This document shows positions 7,501 through 44,700 of a stretch of 64,000 nucleotides of DNA, piece after piece. Location of the stretch: positions 124,001 to 188,000 of the IMG/VR virus record IMGVR_UViG_3300036770_003657; one strand, 5' to 3'. The notes below the pieces were generated by a model that searched no databases, had not been told where the DNA came from, and saw nothing but the letters and a program-made list of their open reading frames with translations. The stretch is from a virus. The position numbers and the translations under genes were made by a program. The first letter of the stretch is position 1; the number at the start of each line of letters is the position of its first letter.

Positions 7501-10500
7501 TACAAGGCGTACAAGGTGTACAGGGTGTACAGGGTTTACAGGGCGTTCAAGGCGTTCAAGGTGTACAGGGCGTACAAGGCGTTCAAGGTGTACAAGGTGT
7601 ACAAGGTGTACAGGGTGTCCAAGGCGTACAGGGCGTTCAAGGTGTACAAGGCGTTCAAGGTGTACAAGGTGTACAAGGTGTACAGGGCGTACAAGGCGTA
7701 CAGGGTGTACAAGGTGTACAAGGTGTACAGGGTGTACAAGGTGTCCAAGGTGTACAAGGTGTACAGGGTGTCCAAGGTGTACAGGGTGTCCAAGGTGTCC
7801 AAGGTGTACAAGGTGTACAAGGTGTACAAGGTGTACAGGGTGTACAAGGCGTACAGGGTGTACAAGGCGTACAGGGTGTACAAGGTGTTCAAGGTGTACA
7901 GGGCGTTCAAGGTGTACAAGGTGTCCAAGGTGTCCAAGGCGTTCAAGGTGTCCAAGGTGTCCAAGGCGTACAGGGTGTACAGGGTGTACAAGGCGTACAG
8001 GGTGTACAAGGTGTACAAGGCGTACAAGGTGTACAAGGAGTACAGGGTGTTCAAGGCGTCCAAGGTATCCAAGGTATTCAAGGTCGCGGACCTGTATGGC
8101 GCGGTGATTGGAGTTCTACTGAACAATATCAAACAGATGATATGGTATACTATGATGGTAATACTTTTATTGCTATCACAGGCGACGCTACAACAAGATT
8201 CAGTGGTGTAGAAACTAGACCATTATTAAGCCCAGTAGGAGCAGGTTATCCAGGTGATGTGAACGATACTTACTGGAATAGAATGACCGCTCAGGGTGTC
8301 CAAGGTTTACAGGGCGTACAAGGTGTACAGGGTGTACAGGGTGTACAAGGAGTACAAGGAGTACAAGGTGTACAAGGCGTACAAGGCGTTCAAGGTGTAC
8401 AGGGCGTTCAAGGTGTACAGGGCGTTCAAGGCGTACAGGGTGTACAAGGAGTACAAGGTGTACAAGGCGTACAGGGTGTACAGGGTGTACAAGGCGTTCA
8501 AGGCAATCAAGGTGTGCAAGGTGTACAAGGAGTACAGGGTGTACAGGGTGTACAAGGTGTACAGGGCGTTCAAGGTGTACAAGGTAATCAAGGTGTCCAA
8601 GGTGTACAAGGCGTACAGGGCGTACAAGGTGTACAGGGTGTCCAAGGCGTACAAGGTGTACAAGGTGTGCAAGGCGTACAAGGCGTACAAGGCGTACAAG
8701 GCGTACAAGGTATACAGGGTGTACAAGGCGTACAGGGTGTACAGGGTGTACAAGGCGTACAAGGTGTTCAGGGTGTACAAGGTGTACAGGGCGTACAGGG
8801 CGTACAGGGTGTCCAAGGTGTACAAGGTGTACAGGGCGTTCAAGGTGTACAAGGTGTCCAAGGTGTACAGGGTGTACAGGGTGTACAGGGTGTACAAGGC
8901 GTACAGGGTGTACAGGGTGTCCAAGGTGTCCAAGGTGTACAAGGTGTACAAGGTGTACAGGGTGTACAAGGCGTACAGGGTGTACAAGGCGTACAGGGTG
9001 TACAAGGCGTACAGGGTGTACAAGGCGTTCAAGGCAATCAAGGTGTCCAAGGTGTCCAAGGTGTTCAAGGTGTACAAGGTGTACAGGGCGTTCAAGGCGT
9101 TCAAGGCAATCAAGGTGTACAGGGCGTTCAAGGCGTACAAGGTGTACAAGGCGTACAAGGCGTACAAGGCGTACAAGGTGTACAAGGTGTACAGGGTGTT
9201 CAAGGTGTACAAGGTGTACAGGGCGTTCAAGGTGTACAAGGTGTACAAGGCGTACAGGGTATTCAAGGATTTGGATTACGTTGGAAAGGCGAGTACGATC
9301 CTTCCACAATTTACCAACAAAATGATGTAGTTTATTATGACGGTGATAGCTTTATAGCAGTATATCCAATTGACCATTATAATGCACCGTTTGGACAATT
9401 CAGTGGTCAAGTACCAGAATTTACTCCAGGCGATGTAAACACTACATATTGGAATAGAATAACAGCTCAAGGTATTCAAGGTGTACAGGGTGTTCAAGGT
9501 GTACAGGGTGTTCAAGGTGTACAGGGTGTCCAAGGTGTACAGGGTGTACAAGGTCTACAAGGCATTCAGGGACTACAAGGTGTACAGGGTGTACAGGGTG
9601 TTCAAGGCGTCCAAGGTGTTCAAGGCGTCCAAGGTGTACAAGGCGTCCAAGGTGTTCAAGGCGTCCAAGGTGTACAAGGCGTCCAAGGTGTTCAAGGTGT
9701 ACAGGGTGTACAGGGTGTACAGGGTGTACAGGGTGTACAGGGTGTACAAGGCGTTCAAGGTGTTCAAGGTGTACAGGGTGTACAAGGCGTACAGGGTGTA
9801 CAAGGTGTACAGGGTGTACAAGGCGTACAGGGTGTACAAGGTGTACAGGGTGTACAGGGTGTACAGGGCGTACAAGGTGTACAGGGCGTACAAGGCGTAC
9901 AAGGTGTACAAGGTGTACAAGGTGTACAAGGCGTCCAAGGTGTACAAGGTGTCCAAGGTGTCCAAGGTGTACAGGGTGTACAAGGCGTACAAGGCGTACA
10001 GGGTGTACAAGGCGTACAAGGTGTACAGGGTGTACAGGGTGTACAAGGTGTACAAGGCGTTCAAGGTGTTCAAGGTGTTCAAGGTGTTCAAGGTGTACAA
10101 GGCGTACAAGGTGTACAAGGCGTACAGGGTGTACAAGGCGTACAAGGTGTACAGGGTGTACAAGGCGTACAAGGTGTACAGGGTGTACAGGGTGTACAAG
10201 GTGTTCAAGGCGTCCAAGGTGTACAAGGTGTACAAGGTGTACAAGGTGTACAAGGTGTCCAAGGCGTACAGGGCGTACAAGGTATACAGGGCTTTGGTAT
10301 TATCTGGCGTGGAATGTATGATTTCACAACAAGATATTATCAAAACGAAGTTGTTTTCTACAATGGTGCCAGCTGGATAGTTCGTTATACTGGTGTAGAA
10401 GGATTAACACCTGGTATAGATGACCCAACTACAGTACCAGGACCAGAATATAATGACACATATTGGGAATTACTAGCCAGCCAAGGTATCCAAGGATTAC

Positions 10501-13500
10501 AAGGTGTACAAGGTGTACAGGGTGTACAAGGTGTACAGGGCGTTCAAGGTGTACAGGGCGTACAGGGTGTACAGGGCGTACAGGGTGTCCAAGGTGTACA
10601 GGGTGTACAGGGTGTACAGGGTGTACAAGGTGTACAAGGCGTTCAAGGTGTACAAGGCGTTCAAGGTGTTCAAGGTATACAAGGTGTACAAGGTGTACAA
10701 GGTGTACAGGGTGTACAAGGTGTACAAGGTGTACAAGGCGTTCAAGGTGTCCAAGGTGTCCAAGGCGTTCAAGGTGTCCAAGGTGTACAGGGTGTACAAG
10801 GTGTACAGGGTGTACAAGGTGTCCAAGGTGTCCAAGGTGTACAGGGTGTACAGGGTCAGCAAGGTATTCAAGGTCTTGGATTTAATTGGCGTGGAGACTG
10901 GAAAGTAGATGAAGTATATGCCAAGAACGATGCTGTAAGGTATGATGGAACATCTTGGGTTTCTCTAACAAAAGATAATATAGGTAATAACCCAAGGCTT
11001 ACAGAAGGTGTTGAATGGGACGTAATTGCTGCACAGGGTGTACAGGGTGTTCAAGGTATTCAAGGTGTACAGGGCGTACAGGGCGTACAAGGTGTACAAG
11101 GCGTTCAAGGTGTACAGGGTGTTCAAGGCATTCAAGGATTCAGCTTTGTTTGGAGAGGTGAATACGATCACACAGCTGATTATCAACAGAATGATGTAGT
11201 TTATTATAATGGCAGTAGTTTTGTAGCTATTTGGCCAATTAATTTTTATGATGTCATTGGTAGCCAATTCAGTGGTGAAGTACCAGAAGTTATCGGAGTA
11301 TACGGTGAGCCAGGAACATTAAACAGTACATATTGGGCAAGAATGTCAGCTCAGGGCGTACAAGGTGTACAGGGTGTACAAGGCGTACAGGGTGTACAAG
11401 GTGTACAGGGTGTACAAGGCGTACAGGGTGTACAAGGTGTACAGGGTGTACAAGGTGTACAGGGCGTACAAGGTGTACAGGGCGTACAAGGTGTACAGGG
11501 TGTTCAAGGTGTACAAGGTGTACAAGGCGTTCAAGGCGTACAGGGTGTACAAGGAGTACAAGGTGTACAAGGTGTACAAGGCGTTCAAGGCAATCAAGGT
11601 GTACAGGGCGTTCAAGGCGTACAAGGTGTACAAGGCGTACAAGGCGTACAAGGTGTCCAAGGTGTACAAGGCGTTCAAGGCGTTCAAGGCGTACAAGGTG
11701 TACAAGGTGTACAAGGTGTACAGGGTGTACAAGGTGTACAGGGCGTTCAAGGCGTGCAAGGTGTACAAGGTGTACAGGGTGTTCAAGGTGTACAAGGTGT
11801 ACAAGGTGTACAAGGTGTACAAGGCGTACAGGGTGTACAGGGTATACAGGGTGTCCAAGGTGTCCAAGGCGTACAGGGTATACAAGGTTTTGGTATTATT
11901 TGGCGTGGATATTACGACTTCAATACTACATATTTCCAAAACGAAGTTGTTTTCTATGATGGAAATAGTTGGATAGTAAAATACACTGGAGTAGAAGGTG
12001 TTCCTACAGGTATCAGTAATCCAGCAGCAGTTCCTGGACCAACCGATATTGATACTTGGTGGGAAAGATTAAGTAGCCAAGGTATTCAAGGTTTACAAGG
12101 CGTTCAAGGTGTACAAGGTGTACAAGGCGTTCAAGGTGTACAAGGCGTTCAAGGTGTACAGGGTGTACAGGGTGTACAAGGTGTACAAGGCGTACAGGGT
12201 GTACAGGGCGTTCAAGGCGTTCAAGGTGTACAGGGCGTACAAGGCGTACAGGGTGTACAAGGTGTACAAGGCGTACAAGGCGTACAAGGTGTACAAGGCG
12301 TACAAGGTGTACAAGGCGTTCAAGGTGTACAAGGTGTACAAGGCGTTCAAGGCGTACAAGGCGTTCAAGGCGTACAAGGCGTACAAGGTGTACAGGGTGT
12401 ACAAGGCGTCCAAGGCGTTCAAGGCGTCCAAGGCGTACAAGGTGTACAAGGCGTACAGGGTGTACAAGGCGTACAGGGTGTACAAGGTGTCCAGGGTATC
12501 CAAGGTATACAAGGCGGACAGGGTATACAAGGCGTACAGGGCGTTCAAGGTGTACAAGGTGTACAAGGCGTACAGGGTGTACAAGGCGTACAGGGTGTAC
12601 AAGGCGTACAGGGTGTACAGGGCGTACAGGGTGTACAAGGCGTACAGGGTGTACAAGGCGTACAGGGTGTACAAGGCGTTCAAGGCGTACAGGGCGTTCA
12701 AGGTGTCCAAGGTGTACAGGGTGTACAGGGTGTACAAGGTGTCCAAGGTGTACAGGGTGTACAAGGTGTACAAGGTGTACAGGGTGTACAAGGTGTCCAA
12801 GGTGTACAAGGACAACAAGGTATTCAAGGCGGCGGTGTAACTTGGAAAGGCATTTGGAATTCAACAACTAATTACATTGAAAATGATGCAGTATTTTACA
12901 ATGGTAATTCTTGGATCAGCGTATTAGAACCAAATATAGATAATGTACCTAATTTAATGTCAATTTATTGGGACATGCTTGCTAGCCAAGGTATTCAAGG
13001 CTTGCAAGGCGTACAGGGTGTACAGGGTGTACAGGGCGTTCAAGGTGTACAGGGCGTTCAAGGTGTACAGGGCGTTCAAGGTGTACAGGGCGTTCAAGGC
13101 GTACAGGGTGTACAGGGCGTACAAGGTGTACAGGGTGTACAGGGTGTACAGGGTGTACAGGGTGTACAGGGTGTACAGGGTGTACAGGGCGTACAGGGCG
13201 TACAGGGCGTACAGGGCGTACAAGGTGTACAGGGTGTACAGGGTGTACAAGGTGTACAAGGCGTACAAGGCGTACAGGGCGTTCAAGGTGTACAGGGCGT
13301 ACAGGGCGTTCAAGGTGTACAAGGTGTACAGGGTATTCAAGGTGTACAGGGTATTCAAGGTGTAGGATTAATATGGAAAGGTCAGTGGAGTGATTCAGTA
13401 TCTTACATAGCCAACGACATTGTATTTTACGATGGCAGTGCTTATATTTCAGTTCAGTCAACTAACCTAAATAATAATCCAACAATTGAAGATAGATCAA

Positions 13501-16500
13501 CTGAATTTACAACGCCTGGAACTTATACTTGGATAGCACCTCCAGGAGTTACCAGTGTAAGTGCTGTAGCAGTTGGTGGTGGATCTAGACCACAAATAAT
13601 AGGTAGTGGATTCAGCGCCAAGAGTTATGGTGGTGGCGGTGGTGGTTTAGGTTATAAGAATAATATACCAGTCGTTCCTGGCCAAGCTTATACAGTAGTA
13701 GTTGGTAGTGGAGCAGCCACAGGCACATATGGTGATGGTGGTGATAGCTACTTTATCAGTTCAATTACAGTAAAAGGTGGCGGAGCTACTGGCAGCACAG
13801 GTGGTACTTATGTAGGTGATGGCGGTGGTAGCGGTGGTAACGGTGGTGCACCAAACGGAAATTCAAGTGGCGGCGCAGGTGATGGCAGTGCTACATCAGG
13901 TGGTGGTGGTGGTGCAGGTGGTTATAGTGGCAACGGTGGCGTTGGCGGAACTATGTTGGTTGACAGTGGTAATGGAGCCAATTTTGGTGCTAACGGCAGT
14001 GGTGGCGGTGGTGCTGGTGGTGGCGGAAGAAATAGTCACGGTGGCGGCGGTGGCGGTGGTGTTGGTATCTATGGCGAAGGAGACAGTGGACTTGCCAATA
14101 CTACTGCTTATGTACCAAACGTAGGTGGCTGGGGCGGCAATGGTGGTAGTGGTGGTACTACTGGTGGTACTGGAACTCAATCAGGTGTTAATGGTGGTGG
14201 CGGCCTATACGGTGGTGGTGCTGGTGGTGGCTGGGCTGGATATGGTGATGCTGCTGGTGGTGGTGCAGTAAGAATCATATGGGGTGCAGGACGTAGTTTC
14301 CCAAGCACAAACGTCAGTACTGCTAGTGATTTTGTTGAAACATCTACCAATGTTCAATACTGGCAGCGATTTACCAGTCAAGGTATACAGGGCGTACAAG
14401 GTCTTCAAGGTGTACAGGGCGTACAGGGCGTACAGGGCGTACAGGGCGTACAGGGTGTACAAGGCGTACAGGGTGTACAAGGCGTACAAGGTATCCAAGG
14501 TGTACAAGGTGTACAGGGTATCCAAGGTGTACAGGGTGTACAAGGTGTACAGGGTGTACAAGGTGTACAGGGTGTACAAGGTATACAGGGTGTACAAGGT
14601 ATACAGGGTGTACAGGGTGTACAGGGCGTACAGGGCGTACAGGGTGTACAGGGTGTACAAGGTATCCAAGGTGTAAGTATAACTTGGAAGGGAGTTTATG
14701 ATAATGCCGCTCAATATAGCCAAAATGACGTAGTATTTGAAAACGGCAGTAGTTGGATAGCAGTTTATCCATATACAAGTGGAACGTTTAGTGGCATAAG
14801 ACCAGGTGAAACAGTAGGTTGGATCACATATTGGAATATGATGACCAGCCAAGGTATTCAAGGTGTACAGGGTGTACAGGGTGTACAAGGTATTCAAGGT
14901 GTACAGGGTGTACAAGGTATTCAAGGTGTACAGGGTGTACAGGGTATACAAGGTGTACAAGGCGTACAAGGTATTCAAGGTGTCCAGGGTGTACAGGGTA
15001 TACAAGGTGTACAAGGCGTACAAGGTATTCAAGGTGTACAGGGTGTACAAGGTATTCAAGGTGTACAGGGTATCCAAGGTGTACAGGGTGTACAGGGTAT
15101 ACAAGGTGTACAGGGTGTACAGGGTATACAAGGTGTCCAGGGTGTACAGGGTGTACAGGGTATACAAGGTGTACAGGGTGTACAGGGTATTCAAGGTGTA
15201 CAGGGTGTACAGGGTATTCAAGGTGTACAAGGCGTACAAGGTATCCAAGGCGGTCAAGGTATTCAAGGTGTACAGGGTGTACAAGGTATCCAAGGCGTCC
15301 AAGGTGTACAAGGTATTCAAGGTGTACAGGGTGTACAAGGCATCCAAGGTGTACAAGGTGTACAAGGTATTCAAGGCGGTCAGGGTATACAAGGTGTACA
15401 AGGTATACAGGGTGTCCAAGGCATCCAAGGTGTACAAGGTATTCAAGGCTTCCAAGGCACCAAGGGTGAGGGCTTTACATTCTTGGGAGATTGGAGTCCT
15501 GTAACAGAATATATTAAGAATGACAGTGTATACTATAATGGTTCAAGCTATACAAGCACTTACGGTGATATAACATATGCTGGAGGTGGATTTGCTAATA
15601 TTAATCAACGTCCAGGTGAACTAGTAACAATATCAAATGTTAGCCTAACTGCTAGTGGTGTATTCAGTTGCGATAGTGTAAACCTATATAAAGCAGAAGT
15701 TATTAGAGTAAGTGGTACAGTTCCAGCAGGATTTACAATTGAGAATCCAGATAGTCCTGCTCAAGCTCCAACTTACTATACAGCTGGTCAACAAGTTGAT
15801 AATGATTATTATGTAATCACATATCCAAATAATCCAACTACAACCTTTACATTAGGACGTAGTCAATTCTCTGTAGATCCAATTAGTACAACTGGTACAG
15901 GCAGTTTAAGTGGGTTAACATTTAAGGCTGTTCCATGGTTAATTATTAGTGCTCAAGGTATTCAAGGATTACAAGGTGTACAAGGTATACAGGGTGTACA
16001 AGGTATACAGGGTGTACAAGGTATACAGGGCGTACAGGGTGTACAAGGTATACAAGGTGTACAAGGTGTACAAGGTATTCAAGGTGTACAAGGTATTCAA
16101 GGTGGTCAGGGCATACAAGGTGTACAAGGTATTCAAGGTGTACAAGGTATACAGGGTATTATTGGTACTCCAGGTGGTTATACAGCAAATTATAATTGGG
16201 ATAGTAGCACAGCAGTTGCCGATCCAGGTGTAGGTAATGTAACTATTGAGCGTAGTTGGACAGATCAAACTGCTGGTCAAGTTTATATCAATCTTGACAA
16301 GTATGACGCAGATGGACAAGATCGTGCAGCGTGGGTCAATGCTATCAAGTTCTTTGGTAGCGCAAGTAGCTACTATGGTGTTATTACAATTATGCCAGAA
16401 GGTGCTACAAATCAGCGCTGGACCGGTGTTATCACCGTAGTAAATGATCTCAGTACACATTTTAGACTACAGCTAACCTTTGTTGATAGTCAAGGATCAG

Positions 16501-19500
16501 CCCCAACAGTTGGACAAAAATTAGGCGTCAGCTTCCAGCCAGCTGGTCAACAGGGTATCCAAGGCGTACAAGGTATCCAAGGCGTACAAGGTATCCAAGG
16601 TGTACAAGGTGTACAAGGTATCCAAGGTGGTCAAGGCATCCAAGGTGTACAGGGTGTACAAGGTATACAAGGCGTACAAGGCGTACAAGGTATCCAAGGC
16701 GTACAAGGTATCCAAGGTGTACAGGGTGTACAGGGTATACAGGGTGTACAAGGCGTACAAGGCATACAAGGTGGTCAAGGCATACAAGGCGTACAGGGTG
16801 TACAGGGTATCCAAGGTGTACAAGGTGTACAGGGTATACAGGGCGTACAGGGTGTACAAGGTATCCAAGGTGGTCAAGGCATCCAAGGTGTACAGGGTGT
16901 ACAGGGTATACAGGGCGTACAGGGTGTACAAGGTATACAAGGTGGTCAAGGTATACAAGGTGTACAGGGTGTACAGGGTATACAGGGCGTACAGGGTGTA
17001 CAAGGTATCCAAGGTGTACAAGGTATACAGGGTATTCAAGGTTCAAGTATCACGTGGAGAGGCCAATACAGTCCAACAACTGTATACAATACAAACGACG
17101 TAGTATTTGAAAATGGTCAAAGCTGGGTTGGTGTAAGAGGTACAGGTAATAGTCAAACATTAACTAGTGTAGCACACAGCGGTAGTGGTGTGTTTACTTG
17201 TGCTGCTGCTACATTATTTGTTGGTGACCAAGTTACTGTAAGTGGAACAAATGGTGGCAACGTAGTATTACCAGGATACAGTGCTAGTGGTACAAATTAT
17301 TATATTATAGCTACAAATGGTACTACACAATTTACTTTAAGTACTACACTAAACGGATCTGCTGCTACAGCTACCACAGGTACTACAGTCAGTGGATCAA
17401 TGATATTTGTTGTACCAACAGGATTTGGAAATGTAAGACCTAACCTAACACAAACTAATCATTGGAACTTAATGACTAGCCAAGGTATCCAAGGTGTACA
17501 GGGTGTACAGGGTGTACAAGGTATCCAAGGTGTACAGGGTGTACAGGGTATACAAGGTGGTCAAGGCATACAGGGTGTACAAGGTGTACAGGGTGTACAA
17601 GGCATACAAGGTGGTCAAGGTATCCAAGGTGTACAAGGTATACAGGGCGTACAAGGTGTACAAGGTATCCAAGGTGTACAGGGTATTCAAGGTATTACTG
17701 GTTTAGGTATTACTTGGAAAGGAACTTGGACTAGTTCAACAGTTTACAATAGCAATGACGTAGTATTCTACAACGGCAATAGCTGGATTGGTGTACGTGG
17801 AACAGGTAACAGTGTAGCATTAAGTGGTGTAAGTATCGGGGCTAGTGGCGTAATATCCTGTACTGCTACAAGCTTGCCAGCAGGATTCCAAGTAGGTGAT
17901 CAAGTTCTAGTTGCAGGCATTAATAGTGGAACTGGTGCATTACCAAGTTACAGCGCCAGCGGCACTTACTATTATATTATAGCTACAAATGGTAGCACAC
18001 AATTTACCATAAGTACAACAGCTGGTGGTGCTGCTGCTAGTACAACTTCTGGTACTGTAAGTGGTGCAATGACCTTTACTGTAGCAACAGGTTTTGTCAA
18101 TGTCATTCCAAACTTAACTAATACAAACCACTGGAACCAAATGACCAGCCAAGGTATCCAAGGCATCCAAGGTGTACAAGGTGTACAGGGCATACAAGGT
18201 GTACAAGGTGTACAGGGTATACAAGGTGTACAAGGACGTCAAGGTGTACAGGGTGTACAAGGTATCCAAGGTGTACAAGGTGTACAAGGTATACAAGGTG
18301 GTCAAGGCATTCAAGGTGTACAGGGCGTACAAGGTATACAGGGTGTACAAGGACGTCAAGGTGTACAGGGTGTACAGGGCATACAGGGTGTACAAGGCGT
18401 ACAAGGTATACAGGGTGTACAAGGCGTACAAGGTATACAAGGTGGTCAAGGCATTCAAGGTGTACAGGGTGTACAAGGTATACAGGGTGTACAAGGTGTA
18501 CAAGGTATCCAAGGCGTACAGGGTCAGCAAGGTATTCAAGGTTCAGGCTTTAAGTGGCGTGGTGTTTGGGCTCCACAATTTGACTATGCTGTTAGTGATA
18601 TGGTATCACACTTGGGTAGCACATATGTTAGCTTAACTCAGTATCTTCCACAAACACTAGCAAATGTTCAAATTATATCTGCTGGTAAAATAACTTGTAA
18701 CACTCCAACTAATGCATTAAATCCAGGTGATGGTCTTTATGCTATAGGTGTTAAAACTGGAACAGGGTCTATAACTGGTTATAATAGTGCAGGAACAAAT
18801 TATTTCATAACAACAGTTAGCAATAATGCTGGCACTACTACATTAACTTTAAGTGCCAATTATAATCCGTATGTAACAGTTAGTACCACAGCAGGTACAA
18901 GCACTGGTATTACTTTCTACGCACCAACTTTTGTACCAACTAGCTTTACTAAAGATCAATATGATAATGGTCAATCAAGTGTAGGTGCTTGGCAGTTAGC
19001 AGGTTCACAGGGTATTCAGGGTGTACAAGGCGTACAAGGTGTACAAGGTATACAGGGCGTACAAGGTATACAGGGCGTACAAGGAGTACAGGGTATACAA
19101 GGTGTACAAGGTATACAGGGTATTCAAGGTGCAAGCCCAACTTGGAGAGGAACATATACAAGTGGTGTAGCATACAATACTAACGATATGGTATTCCATA
19201 ATGGTAATACATATATGGCCATTTATGGTACAGGTAATACTGTAGCATTAAGTGGTGTAAGTATTGGAGCTAATGGAACATTTACTTGTACAGCAGCAAG
19301 CCCAGCTCTTGTAGTTGGTAATGGTGTTAGAATCGTGGGCGCTGCCAGTGGTACTGGTAGTATTAGTGGTTACACAGAAGGTGCAACTTATTATATCACA
19401 GCTACAAACGGTAGTACAAGCTTTACTTTAAGTTCCACAATCGGCGGTGCAGCAGTAACAACTACTGCTGGTACAAGCACAGGATTAACATTCCAACATC

Positions 19501-22500
19501 CAGTAAGTTTTGCTAATCAAGTTCCAGCAACAGGTCAACCCCCAGTAGTTAATACAACTTACTGGAATCAGATGACCAGCCAAGGTATCCAGGGTGTACA
19601 GGGTGTACAGGGTGTACAAGGTATCCAAGGTGTACAAGGCGTACAAGGTATACAAGGTGGTCAAGGTATACAGGGTGTACAGGGTATACAGGGCGTACAA
19701 GGTATACAAGGTATTCAAGGCTTTAGTGTAACTTACAGAGGACAATACAATCCTGCTACAGTATACACACAGAACGATGTGGTATTTGAAAATGGACAAA
19801 GCTGGATTGCTATATGGCCAATTACAACAAGTACATTTAGTAATGTAAGACCAGGAGTAACAGCAGGTTGGGCTAACTATTGGGGCAACTTAACTAGCCA
19901 AGGTATACAGGGTGTACAAGGTGTACAAGGTGTACAAGGTATTCAAGGTGTACAAGGACGTCAAGGTGTACAAGGTATACAAGGTGTACAAGGCGTACAA
20001 GGTATTCAAGGTGTACAAGGTGTACAGGGTATACAGGGATTAAGTATCAATTGGAAAGGCCAGTTTAATCCTGCTACAGCATATAGTCAAAACGATGTAG
20101 TATTTGAAAACGGCGCAAGCTGGATAGCAAAATGGCCATATGCTAGTGGAACCTTTACAGGAATCAGACCAGGAGTAACAGTAGGCTGGGCTACATACTG
20201 GGATCAAATGACCAGCCAAGGTATCCAAGGTGTACAGGGTGTACAGGGTATCCAAGGTGTACAGGGTGTACAGGGTATCCAAGGTGTACAGGGTGTACAA
20301 GGTATACAGGGTGTACAAGGTGTACAAGGTATCCAAGGTGGTCAAGGTATACAAGGCGTACAAGGTATTCAAGGTGTACAAGGCGTACAAGGTATTCAAG
20401 GTGTACAGGGTGTACAAGGTATACAGGGCTTTAGTGTAACTTATAGAGGAATCTATAACAATGCTACAGTTTATACTCAAAATGATGTAGTATTTGAAAA
20501 TGGACAAAGTTGGATAGCAGTGTATCCAATTACAACAGGTACATTTAGTGGTCAACGTCCAAGTTTAGCAAATACAACATATTGGGGTCAATTAACAAGT
20601 CAAGGTATACAGGGTGTACAAGGTGTACAAGGTATACAAGGTGGTCAAGGTATCCAAGGTGTACAAGGTGTACAAGGTATACAGGGCGTACAAGGTGTAC
20701 AAGGTATCCAAGGTGTACAGGGTGTACAGGGTATACAGGGTGTACAAGGACGTCAAGGTGTACAGGGCATACAAGGTGTACAGGGTGTACAAGGTATACA
20801 AGGTGTACAAGGTGTACAAGGTATCCAAGGTGGTCAAGGTATCCAAGGCGTACAAGGTATTCAAGGTGTACAAGGTGTACAGGGTATCCAAGGATTTAGC
20901 GTAACTTACAGAGGAATATATAATAACGCCACAGTTTACACTCAAAATGATGTAGTATTTGAAAATGGACAAAGTTGGATAGCAGTATATCCAATAACTA
21001 GTGGAACATTTAGTGGTCAACGTCCAAGTTTAGCAAACACAACATATTGGGGTCAGTTAACAAGTCAGGGTATACAAGGTGTACAGGGTGTTCAAGGTAT
21101 TCAAGGTGGTCAAGGTATACAAGGTGTACAAGGTATACAAGGTATCCAAGGTGGTCAAGGTATTCAAGGTGTACAGGGTGTACAGGGTATACAGGGTGGA
21201 CAAGGTATTCAAGGTCGTCAAGGTATACAAGGTATCCAAGGTGGACAAGGTATACAGGGTATTCAAGGTGGTCAAGGTATCCAAGGTGTACAAGGTGTAC
21301 AAGGTATCCAAGGTGGACAAGGTATCCAAGGTGTACAAGGCGTACAAGGTATACAGGGTGGACAAGGTATACAAGGAGTACAGGGTGTACAAGGTATACA
21401 AGGTGGACAAGGTATTCAAGGTATCCAAGGTATCCAAGGATTTAGTGTTACATATCAAGGTGTATACAATAATGCTACAGTGTACACTCAAAATGATGTA
21501 GTATTTGAAAATGGACAAAGCTGGATTGCAATATATCCAGTAACAACAGGAACATTTAGTGGAATACGTCCAGGTGTAACAGTAGGTTGGGCTACATATT
21601 GGGGTAGATTAAGTCAACAAGGTATACAGGGTATACAGGGTGGACAAGGTATACAGGGTGTACAAGGTATCCAAGGTATCCAAGGTGGACAGGGCATACA
21701 GGGTGTACAAGGTATCCAAGGTATCCAAGGAGGCCAAGGTATTCAAGGTATCCAAGGTGGCCAAGGTATACAGGGTGTCCAAGGTGTTCAAGGTATACAG
21801 GGTGGACAAGGTATACAAGGTAGACAGGGTATACAGGGTCAACAAGGACTACAGGGTACACAGGGTCAACAAGGTATCCAAGGACAGCAAGGTACACAGG
21901 GTATACAGGGTCAACAAGGACTACAGGGTACACAAGGACAACAAGGTATCCAAGGTCAACAAGGTACACAGGGTATACAGGGTCAACAAGGATTACAGGG
22001 TACACAAGGACAACAAGGTATACAAGGTCAACAAGGTACACAGGGTATACAGGGTCAACAAGGTACACAAGGACTACAGGGTACACAAGGACAACAAGGT
22101 ATACAAGGACAGCAAGGTACACAGGGTATACAGGGACAACAAGGTACACAAGGTCAGCAAGGTATACAGGGTACACAAGGTCAGCAGGGGACACAAGGTG
22201 TTCAAGGATTCCAAGGATTCCAAGGTTATCAAGGTGTACAGGGTGAACAAGGTATACAGGGTGTACAAGGTATTCAAGGATTCCAAGGATTTATTGGTGA
22301 TCAAGGTACAACAGGTTCACAAGGTACAACAGGTGATACAGGCTTACAGGGATTACCAGGACCACAAGGTACAGATGGACAAACTGGAGCACAAGGTCCA
22401 CAAGGTCCACAAGGTTTAGATGGAACAATTGGAACATTAAGTTTAGCAACATTCAAGAGCGTAGTAGCAGGTGCCGCAAACTTCCAAGACTTCCAAACAG

Positions 22501-22517
22501 CAGTAGCAGCACTATAA
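4515..22517 (+). CDS. Giant 6000-residue collagen-like, multi-module fibre/adhesin
   Basis: One uninterrupted frame encodes 6000 residues. Residues about 41-115 form a fibre domain with the motif '[19 protein letters not shown]'. From residue about 154 to 5700 there are about 25 Trp/Tyr-rich modules of 50-65 residues, pattern 'WrGxWxxxxxYxxNDvVxYnGxSWia...P...YWxxmtsQG', like the chitin-binding-type carbohydrate modules common in phage fibres. They are joined by long tracts of Gly-X-Gln triplets (mostly GVQ, also GIQ, GGQ, GQQ). Other domains are a Gly-rich domain (about 2994-3256), a '[13 protein letters not shown]' fibre domain (about 3883-4011) and beta inserts in some late modules. The C-terminal tract becomes more canonical ('[18 protein letters not shown]'). 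I infer an extremely long tail-associated fibre or surface filament that binds glycans. A passive decoration role is also possible. Confidence 0.85.
13494..14280 (+). other. Gly-rich receptor-binding-like domain inside the giant fibre
   Basis: After module 14 starts ('[20 protein letters not shown]'), the protein switches to '[20 protein letters not shown]' and then about 230 residues dominated by Gly with Ser, Ala, Asn and Tyr. The module's closing 'QYWQRFTSQ' follows at about 14358-14382. The lead-in plus polyglycine run resembles Gly-rich domains of phage and bacterial adhesins. By analogy with polyglycine-loop adhesins such as T2-type gp38 it could be the specificity tip. This is the only such domain in the 6000 residues. 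Confidence 0.6.
16162..16548 (+). other. '[13 protein letters not shown]'-type fibre domain inside the giant protein
   Basis: About 129 residues without Gly-X-Gln triplets: '[20 protein letters not shown]', then '[18 protein letters not shown]', then a beta-rich C-terminal half. The pattern (YxFDSSTxxxDPGxGxxxxN ... DxDGxD) occurs next to collagen-like stretches in many other phage fibre proteins. It replaces a carbohydrate-binding-like module at this position. Confidence 0.6.
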
Positions 22518-22531
22518 GGAGATGATGAGTA

Positions 22532-25372
22532 ATGCCAATTAATTTAGATCAGACGGGCCCAGCGCATTTATTAAGCACCGATGAAGATGGTCTGATCCTT
22601 AATGGCAGTCCAGTCATCTCAAAGAGTATTCACGTTAGTGATATCGAACCAAAAACTTATTTTGGTGATACTAATACTAAATTACTTTGGCTAGATACTG
22701 GTGTACAAGGTGTTAGTAGCTTCCCTAACGGTGGAGCAGCCAATTGGATATTGAGAACTAATGGCAATGGCACAGTAAGTTGGATTCCACCTAGTACTTT
22801 AGATGCTACAAAGTTTCATTATAGAACTAGTACTAATAATACAGCACCAGATCCATTAGGTTTAGGTCCAGGATCTGGGTATGTACGATTTGTCAGGGAT
22901 GAAGAAATAGATCCAATGAGTACTGCTACAAAACTTGTAATTAGTAGTTATAGTGTTGCAGGAGATCCTAATTACATTATGGGAGCTACACCTGGAGTAC
23001 CAAGTTATAATGACATTGGTAGTTTTATAAATGGGTTAAGTGCTTATGGTAATAATAGCCGTAGAGGATTTATCAAGGTAGAAAAGGAAAACGATCCTAA
23101 TCATTTTCAAATTTATAGTTTTAGTACCATAGTAGATAGAGTAGGTTGGTTTGAAATTGATGTTGAAATCGTAAGAGTTGAGACTGGGGATGAAAATTTT
23201 CCTAACGATGAGCCAGTCAGTGTGAACTTTAGTGTGGCAGGCCCCGAGGCATTGACTCAAGATTTAAGTAATTATGTCACTTTTACAGGAACTCAAACAC
23301 TAACGAACAAAACTATAACAACACCAATAATTACAGAACCATCAATTAATAATAAGAGCACTATGCTCACTGATGTTGCTATTGGAAGTAATGGGACCTT
23401 CACCTGTAATGCATCTACTCTTAGAGTACATGATGCTTTAAGAGTAACAGGCCTAAATGCAGGCGATGGATCTATTACTGGATACGATGATGTTAGTGCT
23501 GTATATTTTATTACAGCGACAAATGGTACCACAAGCTTTACCCTAAGTGATACTTTAGGTGGCGTAGCCATAACCACAGTCGCAGGAACAGTTAGTGGAG
23601 CAATGACTTTTACAAATAATGTAGGTGGGATAATTTCTTTTGATGATGCTGATCCAACTAATGGTTTTGAAACAAGGTTAACTGTAATTAGTAGCAGTGC
23701 AGATCATAAAATTATACTTCCAGATGCAACTACTACTCTTGTAGGTATTGATAACACTCAAACTTTAACTAATAAGACTATCATTGAGCCAATTATACAT
23801 GATCCTGAAGTAATTATTACAGATGATGATGTTAATATAACCATAAGCAGTAATATTGCAACAAGTTTCAATAGCAGAATTAATACAGCTGATGCTAAAA
23901 CATATAGTTGGGCAACAAATTATTATTTTGATGGCACGAATTGGCTTAAAGATAATGATAATAGAGGTGGATGGCGTCTAAGTAAAGTAGCAGATATAAC
24001 GCTAGATGCTAATAATAAAATAATTTTAGGCTATGCTCCAATAGGTAGTAATGTAGAAGATCAAAAATTAATATTAAATGGAGATGGTCAGTTAGAATTA
24101 ACTTCAAATATAGCTAGTACAACTACAAGCACTGGTACACTGGTTGTTGATGGCGGTGTTGGAATTAGTGCCGATGTTAATATCGGAGGTGATACTAATA
24201 TAACCGGAACACTTGAAGCAGGAGCAATTGAAAGTACACCGATAGGTTTATCATTCAGATCAACTGGCGCATTTACTTCTTTGGCAGCAAATGGTATACT
24301 GCAAGTAACTGATGCTACAGCCAGTATAAATCAAACAACTGGAGCAGCAGTTATTACTGGTGGACTAGGGGTAGGAGGTGCTGCTTATGTAAATGGTCCA
24401 GTATACTTAAATGCTATAGATCCATTAGACGAAACAGAACTAACAGGGTATAGTTTAGTAGTTCAAAATCCACAGGCTAAAGTAAGGGTAGGGCCTAATT
24501 ATATTGATGGTGCTGTAGATTATATTGATATTTTGACACTTGAAGATAACCCAACAATTACTACTACCAGTGTAAATTTTACATTGGATAATTTACAAAG
24601 TGGTGGTAATATTACATTAACTGCTACAGATGCTTCAGTAATAGTAACTGCAAATACTGCCTCTACAGATAAAGTAACAGGCGCATTAAAAGTAGCAGGT
24701 GGTATCGGTGTTGAGTTAGATATTCATGCTGATGATATCTATGTATATGGACAAACTGGATTAAATGACACTGCCAGTCAAGTAGTAAGTCTAGCAGCAA
24801 CTCAAACATTAACAAATAAAACAATTAATGCCCCTACTATTGATGATGTAGTACTTACTGGCACAGTTAGTGCTAATAGTAGCACAGGTATCGCAGGACA
24901 ATTATTATCAAGCACAGGAACTGGTGTCGAATGGGTTAATCCTGTAACTAATAGTGCTGTAGTATTTTATAAAGCCAGTGATCAAAACTTTTTTACAGCA
25001 GCTACAGTTACATTGCCTGCTAGTCCAACTATTGTAGTAGGATCAGATTTTGGTGATATGAATGCTGCTGGTAGTGGAATCTTTACTTTTAGTGTGGCTG
25101 GTACATATCAAATCATTATCAATTACAGTGTAAGTGATACGGGTGGTGGAGCAACTTATCCAACAGTAGATTTTTGGGTAAGAAAAAATAGCGCAGATAC
25201 TATAAAGTATTGTCAAATTTTAACAAATGGTTCACGAAGAGGTGCTGTAACTGAATATATTGAGTTTGATGTAAATGATACTGTACAATGGTATGTCAAT
25301 AGCACATTACGAGTAAACGGCGGTAGCCCTAGTGCTACAGGCAGTAGATTTACTATTGTTCGAGTAGAATAA
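22532..25372 (+). CDS. Tail-fibre protein with 'TQTLTNKTI' repeats and C1q-like C-terminal head
   Basis: A 946-residue protein with Shine-Dalgarno GGAGATGA upstream. The motif 'TQTLTNKTI' occurs three times (near residues 254, 411 and 761), as in many phage fibres. Residues about 271-370 contain a beta insert ('IGSNGTFTCNASTL', 'YFITATNGTTSFTLSDTLGG') that also occurs in the preceding giant protein. Further on are 'LVVDGGVGISADVNIGG' and 'GALKVAGGIGVE' repeats. The last 140 residues ('GIFTFSVAGTYQIIINYSVS', 'YIEFDVNDTVQWYV', 'SRFTIVRVE') have the spacing of a C1q/TNF-like jelly-roll trimer head, a plausible receptor-binding domain. No bacterial-type terminator follows; a strong promoter begins 2 bases after the stop. 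Confidence 0.7.
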   Translation: MPINLDQTGPAHLLSTDEDGLILNGSPVISKSIHVSDIEPKTYFGDTNTKLLWLDTGVQGVSSFPNGGAANWILRTNGNGTVSWIPPSTLDATKFHYRTSTNNTAPDPLGLGPGSGYVRFVRDEEIDPMSTATKLVISSYSVAGDPNYIMGATPGVPSYNDIGSFINGLSAYGNNSRRGFIKVEKENDPNHFQIYSFSTIVDRVGWFEIDVEIVRVETGDENFPNDEPVSVNFSVAGPEALTQDLSNYVTFTGTQTLTNKTITTPIITEPSINNKSTMLTDVAIGSNGTFTCNASTLRVHDALRVTGLNAGDGSITGYDDVSAVYFITATNGTTSFTLSDTLGGVAITTVAGTVSGAMTFTNNVGGIISFDDADPTNGFETRLTVISSSADHKIILPDATTTLVGIDNTQTLTNKTIIEPIIHDPEVIITDDDVNITISSNIATSFNSRINTADAKTYSWATNYYFDGTNWLKDNDNRGGWRLSKVADITLDANNKIILGYAPIGSNVEDQKLILNGDGQLELTSNIASTTTSTGTLVVDGGVGISADVNIGGDTNITGTLEAGAIESTPIGLSFRSTGAFTSLAANGILQVTDATASINQTTGAAVITGGLGVGGAAYVNGPVYLNAIDPLDETELTGYSLVVQNPQAKVRVGPNYIDGAVDYIDILTLEDNPTITTTSVNFTLDNLQSGGNITLTATDASVIVTANTASTDKVTGALKVAGGIGVELDIHADDIYVYGQTGLNDTASQVVSLAATQTLTNKTINAPTIDDVVLTGTVSANSSTGIAGQLLSSTGTGVEWVNPVTNSAVVFYKASDQNFFTAATVTLPASPTIVVGSDFGDMNAAGSGIFTFSVAGTYQIIINYSVSDTGGGATYPTVDFWVRKNSADTIKYCQILTNGSRRGAVTEYIEFDVNDTVQWYVNSTLRVNGGSPSATGSRFTIVRVE

Positions 25373-25374
25373 TC

Positions 25375-25402
25375 TTGACAATGTAAAAAAAATCTATATA
25401 AT
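25375..25402 (+). promoter_or_regulatory. Perfect sigma70-type promoter TTGACA-N16-TATAAT
   Basis: TTGACA at 25375-25380 and TATAAT at 25397-25402 are both exact consensus, separated by 16 bases. It would initiate near 25409 and drive the three glycan genes that follow. It lies in the only 52-base gap of this region. Such a host-polymerase promoter suggests early expression, unlike the structural genes on either side. Confidence 0.75.
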
Positions 25403-25403
25403 A

Positions 25404-25431
25404 CTAGCATAGATAACTATAATTATGCTAG
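25404..25431 (+). promoter_or_regulatory. Perfect 8-bp inverted repeat spanning the start codon of the DUF4422-like gene
   Basis: CTAGCATA (25404-25411) and TATGCTAG (25424-25431) are exact inverted copies 12 bases apart. The right arm contains the ATG at 25425. It also overlaps the expected transcription start, so it could be a repressor operator or an mRNA hairpin hiding the start codon. Confidence 0.5.
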
Positions 25432-26168
25432 AATTAGGAATGTATTGCCTATGTTATGTAGGCCGAGAACCAAAAAATTATCAGTATAACCAACACAACT
25501 TAATGTGCGGGTCTGTTAATTATAATCAATTTGACGTTTTAGAAATGCAACGTCGAGGATTCTTAATGGATCATGTGGGTGAAAACATAAGTCATATGAA
25601 TAATGACTTTGGTAGTCTTACAGGATTGTATTGGGTTTGGAAAAATGCTGATCATGACTACAAAGGAACTAATACATATCGTATTTTTTGGAATGAAGAT
25701 TTTAATCTTAGACCAAATACTGTATATATTCCTGAAGCAAAAGATATAGTTACTGCTATAAAAGGATATGCTCCTAATGTAAACAGTGTATATGATCATT
25801 TTAGTCATTGTCATAATAGTTTAGGGTGGCAATTATTATATGGACTTGCTGGTGATCGACGTATACCTATTAGTATAGACATGATTGATGACCTTAGGAA
25901 TTACAAATATCTCATTCCTTTCCACATGTTTACAGCAGATAGAGTAACCTTTAATCGTATTTGTGAAATATTGTTTCAAATATTGTTTGAATTTCATGCT
26001 AATTATCAATACTTTTTACCAGAAATTCATAAACGTACTCAACAAGTAAGATTTTATGATTTTTTTGGTGAAAGAATATTACATATTATCCTAACAAATA
26101 ACTATTATTTTTTAGGAAATACAGATATAAGACATTTAAATATACTGGATATAGACCATCATGCTTGA
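25425..26168 (+). CDS. DUF4422-like glycosyltransferase-family protein
   Basis: A 247-residue protein. 'FGSLTGLYWVWKNADHDYKG' near residue 61 matches the signature of DUF4422 proteins ('LTGlYWxWKN', then an xGxxHYRR-type strand), here 'TYRIFWNEDF'. The C-terminal 'VRFYDFFGERILHIIL' matches the family's closing 'GxxxERLL' segment. DUF4422 proteins occur in capsule and O-antigen clusters and are thought to be glycosyltransferases. The usual 'HYRRY' is not intact ('TYRIFW'), so activity is uncertain. No Shine-Dalgarno precedes the ATG at 25425; an ATG at 25440 is an alternative start. It overlaps the next gene by 8 bases. Confidence 0.6.
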   Translation: MLELGMYCLCYVGREPKNYQYNQHNLMCGSVNYNQFDVLEMQRRGFLMDHVGENISHMNNDFGSLTGLYWVWKNADHDYKGTNTYRIFWNEDFNLRPNTVYIPEAKDIVTAIKGYAPNVNSVYDHFSHCHNSLGWQLLYGLAGDRRIPISIDMIDDLRNYKYLIPFHMFTADRVTFNRICEILFQILFEFHANYQYFLPEIHKRTQQVRFYDFFGERILHIILTNNYYFLGNTDIRHLNILDIDHHA

Positions 26169-27414
26169 AAGCAATCGTATACAACCACATTTAGAAAAAT
26201 ATGTAGCCAACCCAACTGATCCAGAGCTTAATTTTATGATGGCTTTGGAATATGATCAAACGGGACAACATGCAAGTGCTGTTAGTTATTATCTGCGTAC
26301 GGCAGAAAGAGCTGAAGATGATTTACTCAAGTATGAATGTTTGATTAGAGCCAGTATTTGTTTTGAAAGACAAGGTAGTAGAAATTTTACTGTAAAAGGA
26401 TTACTACAACACGCTGTGGCCATTATGCCTCATAGACCAGAAGCATATTATCATCTAAGTAGATTTTATGAGCATAAACACGATGACGGTCATTGGAATG
26501 ATACTTATATGATTTCTACTATTGGTGAAAGTGTAGCAGATAATATTAATAGTGGATTACGCACTGATGTTAGCTATTTAGGCAAAGATCATTTAAGATT
26601 CCAAAAAGCTTTAAGTGGTTGGAACTGTGGACTATGCGATGAAAGTCGTAGTATATTCAAAGATCTAATGCGTAGTAAGCAACTTCCAGATGATTATAAA
26701 AAAATTGTGTACAATAATCTTAAGTTTATGAGTGGATATGTAGAGATTCCATTTGATGCTTATGACAAATCTAAATATAATAAATTAAGATTTAAGTTCC
26801 CTGGTGCAGAAAACATTGATGTTAATTACAGTGAAGCATATCAGGATATGTTTGTGCTTAGTATGCTTAATGGTAAAAACTATGGAACATTTATTGAGGT
26901 AGGTGCCGGTAGACCGTTTTATGGAAACAATACAGCCTTATTAGAAAAACAATTTAATTGGAGAGGTATTAGTATAGACTTGGATGAAAGACAGGTCAGT
27001 ACAGAAAGAAGTACACCATTCTTAATTAAAAATGCTTTAGAAATTGATTATGGTAAAATTATTAGAGAATTAAATTTAGGCCCAGTAGTAGATTACTTAC
27101 AATTAGATTGTGATCCACCAGAAGTCACTTTTGAAATACTGAAAAAGATTCCTTTTGATGAATACAAGTTTAAAGTAATAACTTATGAACACGATTATTA
27201 TAATACAGACAAAAAAGAATTAAGAGAAGAGTCTAGAAGATACTTACAATCAAAAGGATATAAGTTAGTGGTAAATGATATTGCTCCTGATGAATGGCGT
27301 AACTATGAAGATTGGTATGTACATCCTGATTATATTGATAAAAGCATATTAGATCGTATGACAGACCTTAGAGATAAGGTTAAGAAGGGCGAAGATTACA
27401 TTTTAGCAGGATAA
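26161..27414 (+). CDS. TPR-domain plus FkbM-family methyltransferase-like protein
   Basis: A 417-residue protein. Residues about 15-125 look like TPR helices ('EYDQTGQHASAVSYYLRTAE', 'RPEAYYHLSRFYEHKHDDG'). Residues about 228-400 fit the FkbM methyltransferase pattern: 'YSEAYQDMFVLSMLNGKNYG', SAM-binding strand 'TFIEVGAGRPFYGNNT' near residue 243, 'WRGISIDLDE', then 'VDYLQLDCDPPEVTFEIL' and 'VITYEHDYY'. FkbM enzymes O-methylate sugars or other small molecules. The TPR+FkbM pairing and the flanking transferases suggest that it tailors a glycan. It could equally act on a host surface polysaccharide. Confidence 0.7.
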   Translation: MLESNRIQPHLEKYVANPTDPELNFMMALEYDQTGQHASAVSYYLRTAERAEDDLLKYECLIRASICFERQGSRNFTVKGLLQHAVAIMPHRPEAYYHLSRFYEHKHDDGHWNDTYMISTIGESVADNINSGLRTDVSYLGKDHLRFQKALSGWNCGLCDESRSIFKDLMRSKQLPDDYKKIVYNNLKFMSGYVEIPFDAYDKSKYNKLRFKFPGAENIDVNYSEAYQDMFVLSMLNGKNYGTFIEVGAGRPFYGNNTALLEKQFNWRGISIDLDERQVSTERSTPFLIKNALEIDYGKIIRELNLGPVVDYLQLDCDPPEVTFEILKKIPFDEYKFKVITYEHDYYNTDKKELREESRRYLQSKGYKLVVNDIAPDEWRNYEDWYVHPDYIDKSILDRMTDLRDKVKKGEDYILAG

Positions 27415-27420
27415 TAGATA

Positions 27421-28200
27421 ATGATTCCAGTAATAGGTACTTGCGTAGTTTTTACAACACATTGGGTAGAACGATTACTAGCCAGTGTAGATTTTCCTGT
27501 GGAGAATTTTCTTATCATTAATAATAATGGTAAAGGTGAGATCACAGAAAATTTAGATGCATTGGCAAAAATTAAAAGACATTTTATTAAAAATGTTCAT
27601 GTTGTTCATATGCCCTGTAATTTAGGAGTTCCTGCTAGTTGGAATCTTATTATTAAAAGTTATATAATGGCACCATATTGGCTAATTGTTAACGATGATG
27701 TAGCATTTGGGCCTGGTATACTAAAGGAAATTTATGATGCAGTCACAGAGGATCCAGAGTTAGGTATAATTCATGCCAATGAAGGAGACTTTAATGTAGG
27801 TAGTTGGGACTTATTTGTATTAAGAGATCATACAGTGGCTAAGTTTGGATTATTTGACGAAAATATGTATCCTGCTTATTGTGAGGATGATGACTATATC
27901 ATGCGTATGATGCATGCCGGTGTTAAGAAAAAATTAGGATTAACTAAAAATTATCTTCATGGAGCAGGAGATAAAACAGAATATCATTTCCATGGTGGTA
28001 ATACACGTAGACACAATCCAGAAATTATGAAAAAGTTGGATGAGGCAAGAGATATGAATATAGAATATCTCACAGCCAAATGGGATAAGCATTGGCGTAC
28101 TTGTTGGCCTACTTTTGAACCATGGCAAGGTCAGCCTCATGTATTAAATGAACAAAGATTTGATTTAGAATTTTTACGTAAGAAATATATAGGATTCTAA
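27421..28200 (+). CDS. GT2-like (GT-A fold) glycosyltransferase
   Basis: A 259-residue protein with the order of a family 2 transferase. It has an N-terminal strand 'PVIGTCVVFTTHWVERLLAS', 'NFLIINNNGKGE', 'VHMPCNLGVPASWNLII' (the NxGxxxxxN nucleotide-sugar region), 'YWLIVNDDVAFGPGILKEIY' with the DD metal site near residue 92, and 'YPAYCEDDDYIMRMMHAG' as the acceptor/catalytic ED segment. No membrane segment is seen, so it is probably soluble. It is the last gene of the plus-strand island; its stop overlaps the 3' end of the convergent Nudix gene by 4 bases. The sugar donor cannot be told. Confidence 0.75.
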   Translation: MIPVIGTCVVFTTHWVERLLASVDFPVENFLIINNNGKGEITENLDALAKIKRHFIKNVHVVHMPCNLGVPASWNLIIKSYIMAPYWLIVNDDVAFGPGILKEIYDAVTEDPELGIIHANEGDFNVGSWDLFVLRDHTVAKFGLFDENMYPAYCEDDDYIMRMMHAGVKKKLGLTKNYLHGAGDKTEYHFHGGNTRRHNPEIMKKLDEARDMNIEYLTAKWDKHWRTCWPTFEPWQGQPHVLNEQRFDLEFLRKKYIGF

Positions 28201-36551: not shown

Positions 36552-36559
36552 TATAAATA
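36552..36559 (+). promoter_or_regulatory. Exact T4-type late promoter octamer before the tail tube gene
   Basis: TATAAATA matches the T4 late consensus recognised by gp55/gp33-modified RNA polymerase. It lies in the 33-base gap between sheath and tube genes, would start transcription about 36565, and is followed by CGGAG and ATG at 36581. The match is seen; use by a gp55-like factor is inferred. Confidence 0.65.
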
Positions 36560-36580
36560 ATAAGAACGGAGCAAAGAACT

Positions 36581-37207
36581 ATGGCAATTGCAACATTAAA
36601 TAGATTTACAGTGCCTTTATCAACAGACGCTAGTGCTAGTAACCAAGGCATGTTAATGCCCAAACTCAAATATCGTTTTAGAATTATGTTTGAGAATTTT
36701 GGTGTTACTAGTCCTTCAACAGAGTTGACCAAGCAGGTACAAACAGCAGCTAAACCCACTGTACAGTTTCAAAATATGGTAATTGAGACATATAACAGTA
36801 AAATTAATTATGCAGGTAAACCAACTTGGAATCCAATTACAGTGGTTATTAGAGATGATGCTACAGGTATTGTAAGCAAGTTAGTTGGTGAGCAGATGCA
36901 GAAACAGTTCGATTTCTTCGAACAGGCCAGTGCTGCTAGTGGTGTAGATTACAAGTTCTTAATGCGTATTGAAATAACAGAAGGCGGAAACGGTATTCAC
37001 GTTCCAACTGTATTAGAAACTTGGGAGTGCTATGGTTGCTATATCCAACAGGCTAATTGGCAATCATTGAGTTATGCAGAAGCAGCTCCACAAACAATTG
37101 ACCTTAATATTCAACCAGATAATTGTATCCAAATTCCACAAGGCAGTGGTGTTGGTGCAGCTATTGGCAGAAGTGTGCGTACAATGGCAACTGGTTCTGG
37201 TGCTTAA
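36581..37207 (+). CDS. 19: Tail tube protein, gp19-like
   Basis: A 208-residue protein with the T4 tube layout: 'MLMPKLKYRFRIMFENFG', 'PTVQFQNMVIETYNSKINYA', 'GKPTWNPITVVIRDDATGIV', 'QKQFDFFEQASAASGVDYKF' and 'LETWECYGCYIQQANWQSLS' with 'APQTIDLNIQPDNCIQ'. Gp19 polymerises as hexameric rings forming the inner tube through which DNA passes. Length is slightly above T4 gp19 (163). It follows gp18 as in T4, has its own late-promoter octamer, and is ended by a clear intrinsic terminator at 37221. Confidence 0.9.
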   Translation: MAIATLNRFTVPLSTDASASNQGMLMPKLKYRFRIMFENFGVTSPSTELTKQVQTAAKPTVQFQNMVIETYNSKINYAGKPTWNPITVVIRDDATGIVSKLVGEQMQKQFDFFEQASAASGVDYKFLMRIEITEGGNGIHVPTVLETWECYGCYIQQANWQSLSYAEAAPQTIDLNIQPDNCIQIPQGSGVGAAIGRSVRTMATGSGA

Positions 37208-44635: not shown

Positions 44636-44664
44636 TTGATTTTATAAATACAAACGCATACAAT
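44636..44664 (+). promoter_or_regulatory. Candidate sigma70-type promoter for gp32
   Basis: TTGATT (44636-44641), 17 bases, TACAAT (44659-44664). The spacing is ideal, with two mismatches at -35 and one at -10. It overlaps the late octamer at 44643 and the inverted repeat at 44652, giving gp32 both an early/middle and a late start, as is known for T4 gene 32. Confidence 0.45.
44643..44650 (+). promoter_or_regulatory. Exact late-promoter octamer upstream of gp32
   Basis: TATAAATA, identical to the T4 late consensus and to the octamer before gp19. Expected start is near 44656, about 90 bases before the gp32 ATG. Confidence 0.6.
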
Positions 44665-44678
44665 ACAAGTATGCGTTT
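44652..44678 (+). promoter_or_regulatory. Perfect 10-bp inverted repeat in the gp32 control region
   Basis: AAACGCATAC (44652-44661) and GTATGCGTTT (44669-44678) are exact inverse copies around AATACAA, followed by TGTTTG. It may be an intrinsic terminator for the upstream operon (stem then T-rich), an operator covering the -10 of the sigma70 candidate, or a 5' mRNA structure. The sequence cannot decide. Confidence 0.55.
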
Positions 44679-44700
44679 TGTTTGACAGGGCGTCAGACAT

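Follow-up and report, generated by a model that had tools for sequence, protein, structure and literature searches.

In a 64,000-base stretch of viral DNA (the window; positions 124001-188000 of a 399796-base virus record), the short gap ahead of a glycan operon contains a sigma70-type promoter that may also supply part of a read-through hairpin of the T4 gene e/I-TevI type. RNA arriving from upstream would hide the start codon, and RNA from the nested promoter would leave it accessible. This reading is plausible, if unproven, and we lean towards it slightly. Its basis is the conservation of the promoter, the synteny of the locus, the pairing of the arms, the contrast in folding between both RNAs and a stronger, co-varying case in the same genome.

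A sigma70-type promoter within the late gene cluster

Late genes surround the site, among them terminase, tail tube, tail sheath stabiliser, head-tail adaptor, tail sheath and fibre families. The features of the locus, in window coordinates, are the following.

4515-22517: ORF of 6000 aa, the first 995 residues of which match collagen-like and other tail-fibre families
22532-25372, plus strand: upstream virion structural gene, 946 aa, syntenic, with partial matches to PHROG virion structural families (E about 1e-7)
25375-25380, plus strand: -35 element TTGACA, exact, in 27/27 copies
25381-25396, plus strand: A-rich spacer of 16 nt, of equal length in the aligned copies
25397-25402, plus strand: -10 element TATAAT, exact, in 22/27 copies, the remaining 5 differing by one base
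25404-25412, plus strand: left arm of a 9-pair stem, CTAGCATAG, with 25404-25408 upstream of the predicted +1
25409-25419, plus strand: predicted +1, placed 7 nt past the -10 element, and conserved leader start ATAGATAACTA
25423-25431, plus strand: right arm of the 9-pair stem, TTATGCTAG, containing the start codon
25425-26168, plus strand: DUF4422 glycosyltransferase-like gene, 247 aa (PF14393, E 2.1e-24)
26161-27414, plus strand: TPR/FkbM-type methyltransferase-like gene, syntenic, with weak Pfam matches that are all below cut-off (FkbM, E 0.04)
27421-28200, plus strand: GT2-type glycosyltransferase gene, third and last of the operon (phrog_29879, a galactosyltransferase PHROG, E 1.8e-25)

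Long antisense ORFs run along the 6000-aa ORF.

The promoter starts 2 bases past the stop of the virion gene, and a terminator scan of the gap between both revealed no terminator-like site. It is the sole exact TTGACA-N15..19-TATAAT within the window. The statistical case from this single sequence is modest, because first-order shuffles of the window yielded a mean of 0.28 exact promoters, with at least one in 52/200 shuffles, and the chance expectation for an 8-bp inverted repeat with a loop of 3-20 is 0.027 per 57 bp. On the evidence of the aligned sequences (27 copies, 21 distinct) the promoter is real, a point settled by its conservation and above all by the invariant TTGACA. Both the exact TTGACA-N16-TATAAT reported by the first-pass annotation and its description as a very strong promoter are thus borne out by sequence and conservation. 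With hexamers near TTGACA and TATAAT, a spacing of 16 within the 15-19 bp range and retention in relatives, the site conforms to the sigma70 type and not to a T4 late promoter, for which TATAAATA would be the local promoter. Early timing is assumed from the promoter type. The genome record as a whole holds 36 exact promoters, compared to 4 matches of the reversed pattern, and 16/36 are followed within 75 nt by a GGAG-type site and an ATG; from this we infer that they look like an early promoter class.

Elsewhere in the window, TATAAATA and a GGAG site stand at 36552-36583, right before the tail tube gene at 36581, in an arrangement resembling a T4 late promoter; this combination occurs 3 times in the genome record versus 0 for the reversed control. 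At 44643-44680 an inverted repeat (AAACGCATAC/GTATGCGTTT) and a T-rich stretch come directly after the same late-type motif TATAAATA, so that a promoter-like motif adjoins a terminator-like element.

The three-gene operon and its relatives

The promoter heads a compact three-gene unit (DUF4422 glycosyltransferase-like, TPR/FkbM-like and GT2-like), in agreement with the glycan island among late genes described in the first-pass annotation, the FkbM assignment being the weak one. The methyltransferase-like gene overlaps the stop of the DUF4422 gene, and minus-strand convergent genes come after the GT2-type gene. The order virion gene-[promoter]-gt-mt-gt2-nudix(-)-gp15(-), in which the labels gt, mt, gt2, nudix and gp15 are our own, is kept in 26/26 relatives reaching upstream, and in the cut loci L028-L030 it is consistent as far as the sequence extends. 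The gap from the upstream ORF to the DUF4422 gene is 52-53 bp in 26/27 copies, which are all those measurable, the upstream ORF being cut in L014. The ATG at 25425 is present in 27/27 aligned copies. A second in-frame ATG (25440) was considered as the true start and rejected, being missing in L022 and L023/L024. No Shine-Dalgarno-like match beyond TAA was found upstream of the ATG at 25425, as had been noted before; the same holds, at a threshold of at least 4 nt, for 20/40 window gene starts listed, so this start is not unusual.

A wide pattern combining leader and start context retrieved 118 stretches. Among the 80 listed, 13 were known loci and 67 were new, and 5 of these new ones encode the DUF4422 gene, all on contigs already in the copy set; 32 further stretches gave 2 matches, with upstream sequence identical to L018/L027 and L025/L026. 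In a 22-stretch search, 19 corresponded to the window locus and 3 (L099, L108, L111) to other loci. A DNA search of the phages collection gave no match, and a protein search gave 3 distant ones. The genome contigs include 295 distant relatives, of which 80 were taken (24-34% identical) and left out of the analysis. L139 has a copy of the gene, 35% identical, that overlaps the preceding ORF, and in L366-L368 no promoter with up to one mismatch was detected ahead of the methyltransferase gene.

Pairing of the arms around the start codon

The segment CTAGCATA (25404-25411) is matched in 8/8 bp by its reverse complement TATGCTAG (25424-25431), so that the palindrome seen earlier over the predicted +1 region and the ATG stands. 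Comparison of the same gap in relatives showed that the promoter is kept, but the exact 8/8 palindrome is found in only 3/27 copies, with outer bases varying in both arms. Pairing appears to be better kept than sequence. In the 9-pair stem, 86.2% of the cells are standard pairs (21 distinct rows), a value reached in 0/500 shuffles, and slid registers are paired at 47.2% at most. Changes on both sides occur at 25406/25429 in 4 distinct rows and at 25405/25430 in 1, and these 5 cells were reached in 3/500 shuffles; two of the five covariation measures were no better than shuffles (158/500 and 450/500). A mismatch at 25407/25428 occurs in 10/21 distinct rows, those of the 53-nt-gap group, several of which are predicted to fold a different hairpin just ahead of the AUG. 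When arms were swapped among 14 distinct pairs, own arms averaged -8.70 kcal/mol versus -7.77 for swapped ones, and 25/2000 permutations were as good; within the 52-nt group alone the test was weak (160/2000). Arm pairing in the window family thus seems to beat swaps and shuffles modestly. As the copies are related, these counts do not represent independent events.

Predicted folding of the two RNAs

Because the predicted +1 (25409) falls within the left arm, RNA from the promoter could not form the whole hairpin. Opening the start region was calculated to cost 9.4 kcal/mol in read-through RNA compared to 2.4 in RNA from 25409. In line with this, the window RNA folded from 25404 gave a z of -2.6 (3/200 shuffles as good), and from 25409 a z of 0 (90/200). 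The start-codon occlusion suggested by the first-pass annotation would therefore fail for the promoter's own RNA and is possible for read-through RNA. Over 19 distinct copies, obtained after removing 8 rows identical over 80 nt, the mean opening cost of read-through RNA was 8.93, versus 5.85 when the 25 bases before +1 were shuffled. The effect was positive in 17/19 copies and above a z of 2 in 6/19; in L014 and L022 it was absent, slightly negative. In a longer-shuffle test of 40 window gene starts, the ATG at 25425 ranked second (z 1.67). By raw duplex energy the window start ranks 142nd of 365 ORF starts in the scanned part of the genome, and its hairpin is therefore ordinary in strength.

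A second locus in the same genome

The second site, at G000:390163, has the following extent.

G000:390158-390249 (= L369:1659-1750): promoter and start of a lipoprotein-like gene, 83 aa

Here the promoter spacer and -10 element form 18 base pairs with the start codon of the gene and the codons after it. By eye we take the gene product to be a lipoprotein; a family search gave no convincing match. The 12 relatives and the own copy comprise 11 distinct sequences, of which 8 have a z above 3. L394 and L395 reach 1.9 and 1.6, the latter reading TAAACT at the -10 place, and L411/L412 are without the hairpin. Own arms averaged -19.4 kcal/mol compared to -11.3 for swapped arms, with 0/20000 permutations as good; after removal of 3 near-duplicates (8 left), 2/40320 were as good, the true order included. 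A count in a fixed register over 7 rows (62.9% paired, 13/500 shuffles as high, and 66.1% at a slide of +2) was weaker, because the stems occupy different registers. By the swap test there is a strong case that the arms change together in the relatives, stronger than that at the window site, and we would put more confidence in the read-through hairpin at this locus than at the window site. At both loci the folding predictions pair the initiation region in upstream-started RNA, as in gene e and I-TevI.

Such pairing was infrequent among promoters. Of the 36 exact ones, 25 had a testable start, although 4 of these are doubtful with a leader of 0 nt (L031, L055, one in L140, and L141), and a z above 2 was obtained for L039 (2.0), the window site (3.1) and G000:390163 (7.7). 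Among one-mismatch promoters with a spacer of 17, 24/25 were taken, the excluded one being intragenic and located in the window; 15 were testable and none exceeded a z of 2. Pooling both screens, 3/40 promoter-gene pairs are above 2, both described sites included.

The conserved leader start

The leader start ATAGATAACTA has a mean column identity of 0.978 (21 distinct copies), compared to 0.968 for the -10 element and 0.911 for the first codons. Within the leader, TAGATAA is found in 27/27 copies and extends into the hairpin loop. The hairpin leaves the loop part of this invariant motif unexplained, and no test fully accounts for the conservation of ATAGATAACTA. We also weighed a T4 gp43-type operator loop (UAAC) at this site and rejected it, since its C is not conserved.

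At G000:10312-20956 (L031-L043, L372-L377) there is a series of promoter cassettes that resemble one another, most of them reading TTGACAGGTCTTT...TATAAT. Most of them precede an ATG with a GGAG-type site, and several have leader starts equal to ATAGTAAAC. The likeness of the window leader to these cassettes is only a lead, because the loose pattern TATAAT-N6-ATAGNNAAC gave 46 matches versus 47 for the reversed control.

Alternative explanations

The promoter and the conserved leader start could be the only functional elements, with the palindrome a coincidence of the GCATAG of the leader and the CTATGC context of the start codon. We regard this as possible, if somewhat doubtful. The rarity of exact 8/8 arms is what such a coincidence would produce, as are the ordinary strength of the hairpin for this genome, the weak swap test within the 52-nt group and the near invariance of the four inner stem pairs, which leaves them with little information. 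It fits less easily with the changes on both sides at 25406/25429 (4/21 distinct rows) and 25405/25430 (1/21), with the 17/19 copies that hide the start codon more than when upstream bases are shuffled, and with the same layout, strongly co-varying, at a second locus of the same genome.

The palindrome had been proposed to be operator-like, and a position just downstream of a promoter is indeed a usual one for an operator; here a dimeric repressor of phage or host bound over +1 would shut a very strong promoter, and conservation of the leader start equals that of the -10 element. However, a fixed operator is unlikely because the exact palindrome persists in just 3/27 copies: the half-sites are not conserved, the outer arm bases vary, and the most conserved stretch is asymmetric. 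Moreover, no second exact copy of TAGCATAGATAACTA was found in the genome record. We therefore consider this explanation very improbable. Matching of the arms by template-switch (quasi-palindrome) mutation during replication, rather than by selection for RNA folding, is also unlikely, though somewhat less so, and it can overlap the other readings. Template-switch correction keeps inverted repeats matched without any function, and could also yield the co-change at the lipoprotein-like locus. Nevertheless, 10/11 distinct sequences of that locus retain a paired element near the start codon despite differing arms, and few of the other promoters tested have such an element.

Proposed mechanism

According to the read-through hairpin reading, a sigma70-like, host-type promoter would transcribe the three-gene glycan operon separately within the late structural cluster. 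RNA begun at about 25409 would be without 5/9 left-arm bases (CUAGCAUAG), and because these are absent the AUG would be open and the operon translated. In RNA continuing from the virion gene, the whole left arm would pair with UUAUGCUAG around the AUG, leading to poor translation, and translational coupling would extend this to the closely spaced genes downstream. As the nested promoter is of the sigma70 type and its surroundings are late, late read-through would be a silent RNA. The +1 site, the read-through, the early timing, the coupling and the effect on translation are all inferred here. The on/off control put forward in the first-pass annotation would survive, if occlusion holds, as a switch between two RNA origins, but without a repressor.

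In broader terms, this phage lineage might turn promoter DNA (spacer, -10 element or discriminator) into an antisense arm for the start codon, a gene being translated only from the RNA of its own sigma70-type promoter. Such an arrangement would shield likely host-surface genes, namely the glycan operon and the lipoprotein-like gene, from read-through, restrict them to early-only synthesis even where the transcription unit is late, and make promoter and coding sequence co-evolve. We offer this generalization tentatively, as one that may well hold but on which we would not yet rely.

It is usual to regard a promoter and a start codon as distinct elements, and here the promoter DNA seems constrained to pair with start-codon RNA; with such pairing, the origin of a transcript would decide its translation. 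If this is true, genes of a late cluster would keep early-only expression with neither repressor nor terminator, and the pairing would be a sequence signature to seek in uncultured phages.

Comparison with known systems

A literature search, which had most subscription journals outside its coverage, found no sigma70-type version of such a hairpin. Work on T4 gene e (lysozyme) describes a local promoter in the DNA encoding the 5' arm, whose RNA is without that part and is translated, and a longer upstream RNA that folds over the initiation region (PMC3014915). In a second study, the ribosome binding region of I-TevI, I-TevII, I-TevIII, segB and Aeh1 mobE is hidden in read-through RNA, the RNA of the late promoter of I-TevI escapes the fold, and the hairpin-controlled genes are late genes carried on transcripts of early and middle genes (PMC2988022). 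The window site would be like gene e if RNA from the nested promoter, begun at the predicted +1, lacks part of the 5' arm. It differs from gene e, where promoters are late and a late gene is silent in early RNA, as the window promoter is of the sigma70 type in a late cluster and late read-through would be silenced; if true, this would be the T4 device turned round in time. Also unlike gene e, the window site has no Shine-Dalgarno sequence and the AUG itself is paired. I-TevI, I-TevII, I-TevIII, segB and Aeh1 mobE are homing endonucleases whose promoters are middle or late, whereas here sigma70-type promoters precede a glycan operon and a lipoprotein-like gene.

Two other arrangements are comparable. 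In IS10 and IS50, an inverted sequence pairs over the transposase start in read-through RNA but not in RNA from the element's own promoter. The window site resembles them in the predicted hiding of the start in outside RNA and its openness in RNA from its own promoter, and differs in that it is a stable, syntenic phage locus with no transposase among the genes examined. Lambdoid morons are accessory units with their own host-type promoter among late genes, as is the window operon. Unlike them, however, the latter comprises three genes, has a synteny that is fixed throughout a T4-like large-phage lineage, and adds the hairpin.
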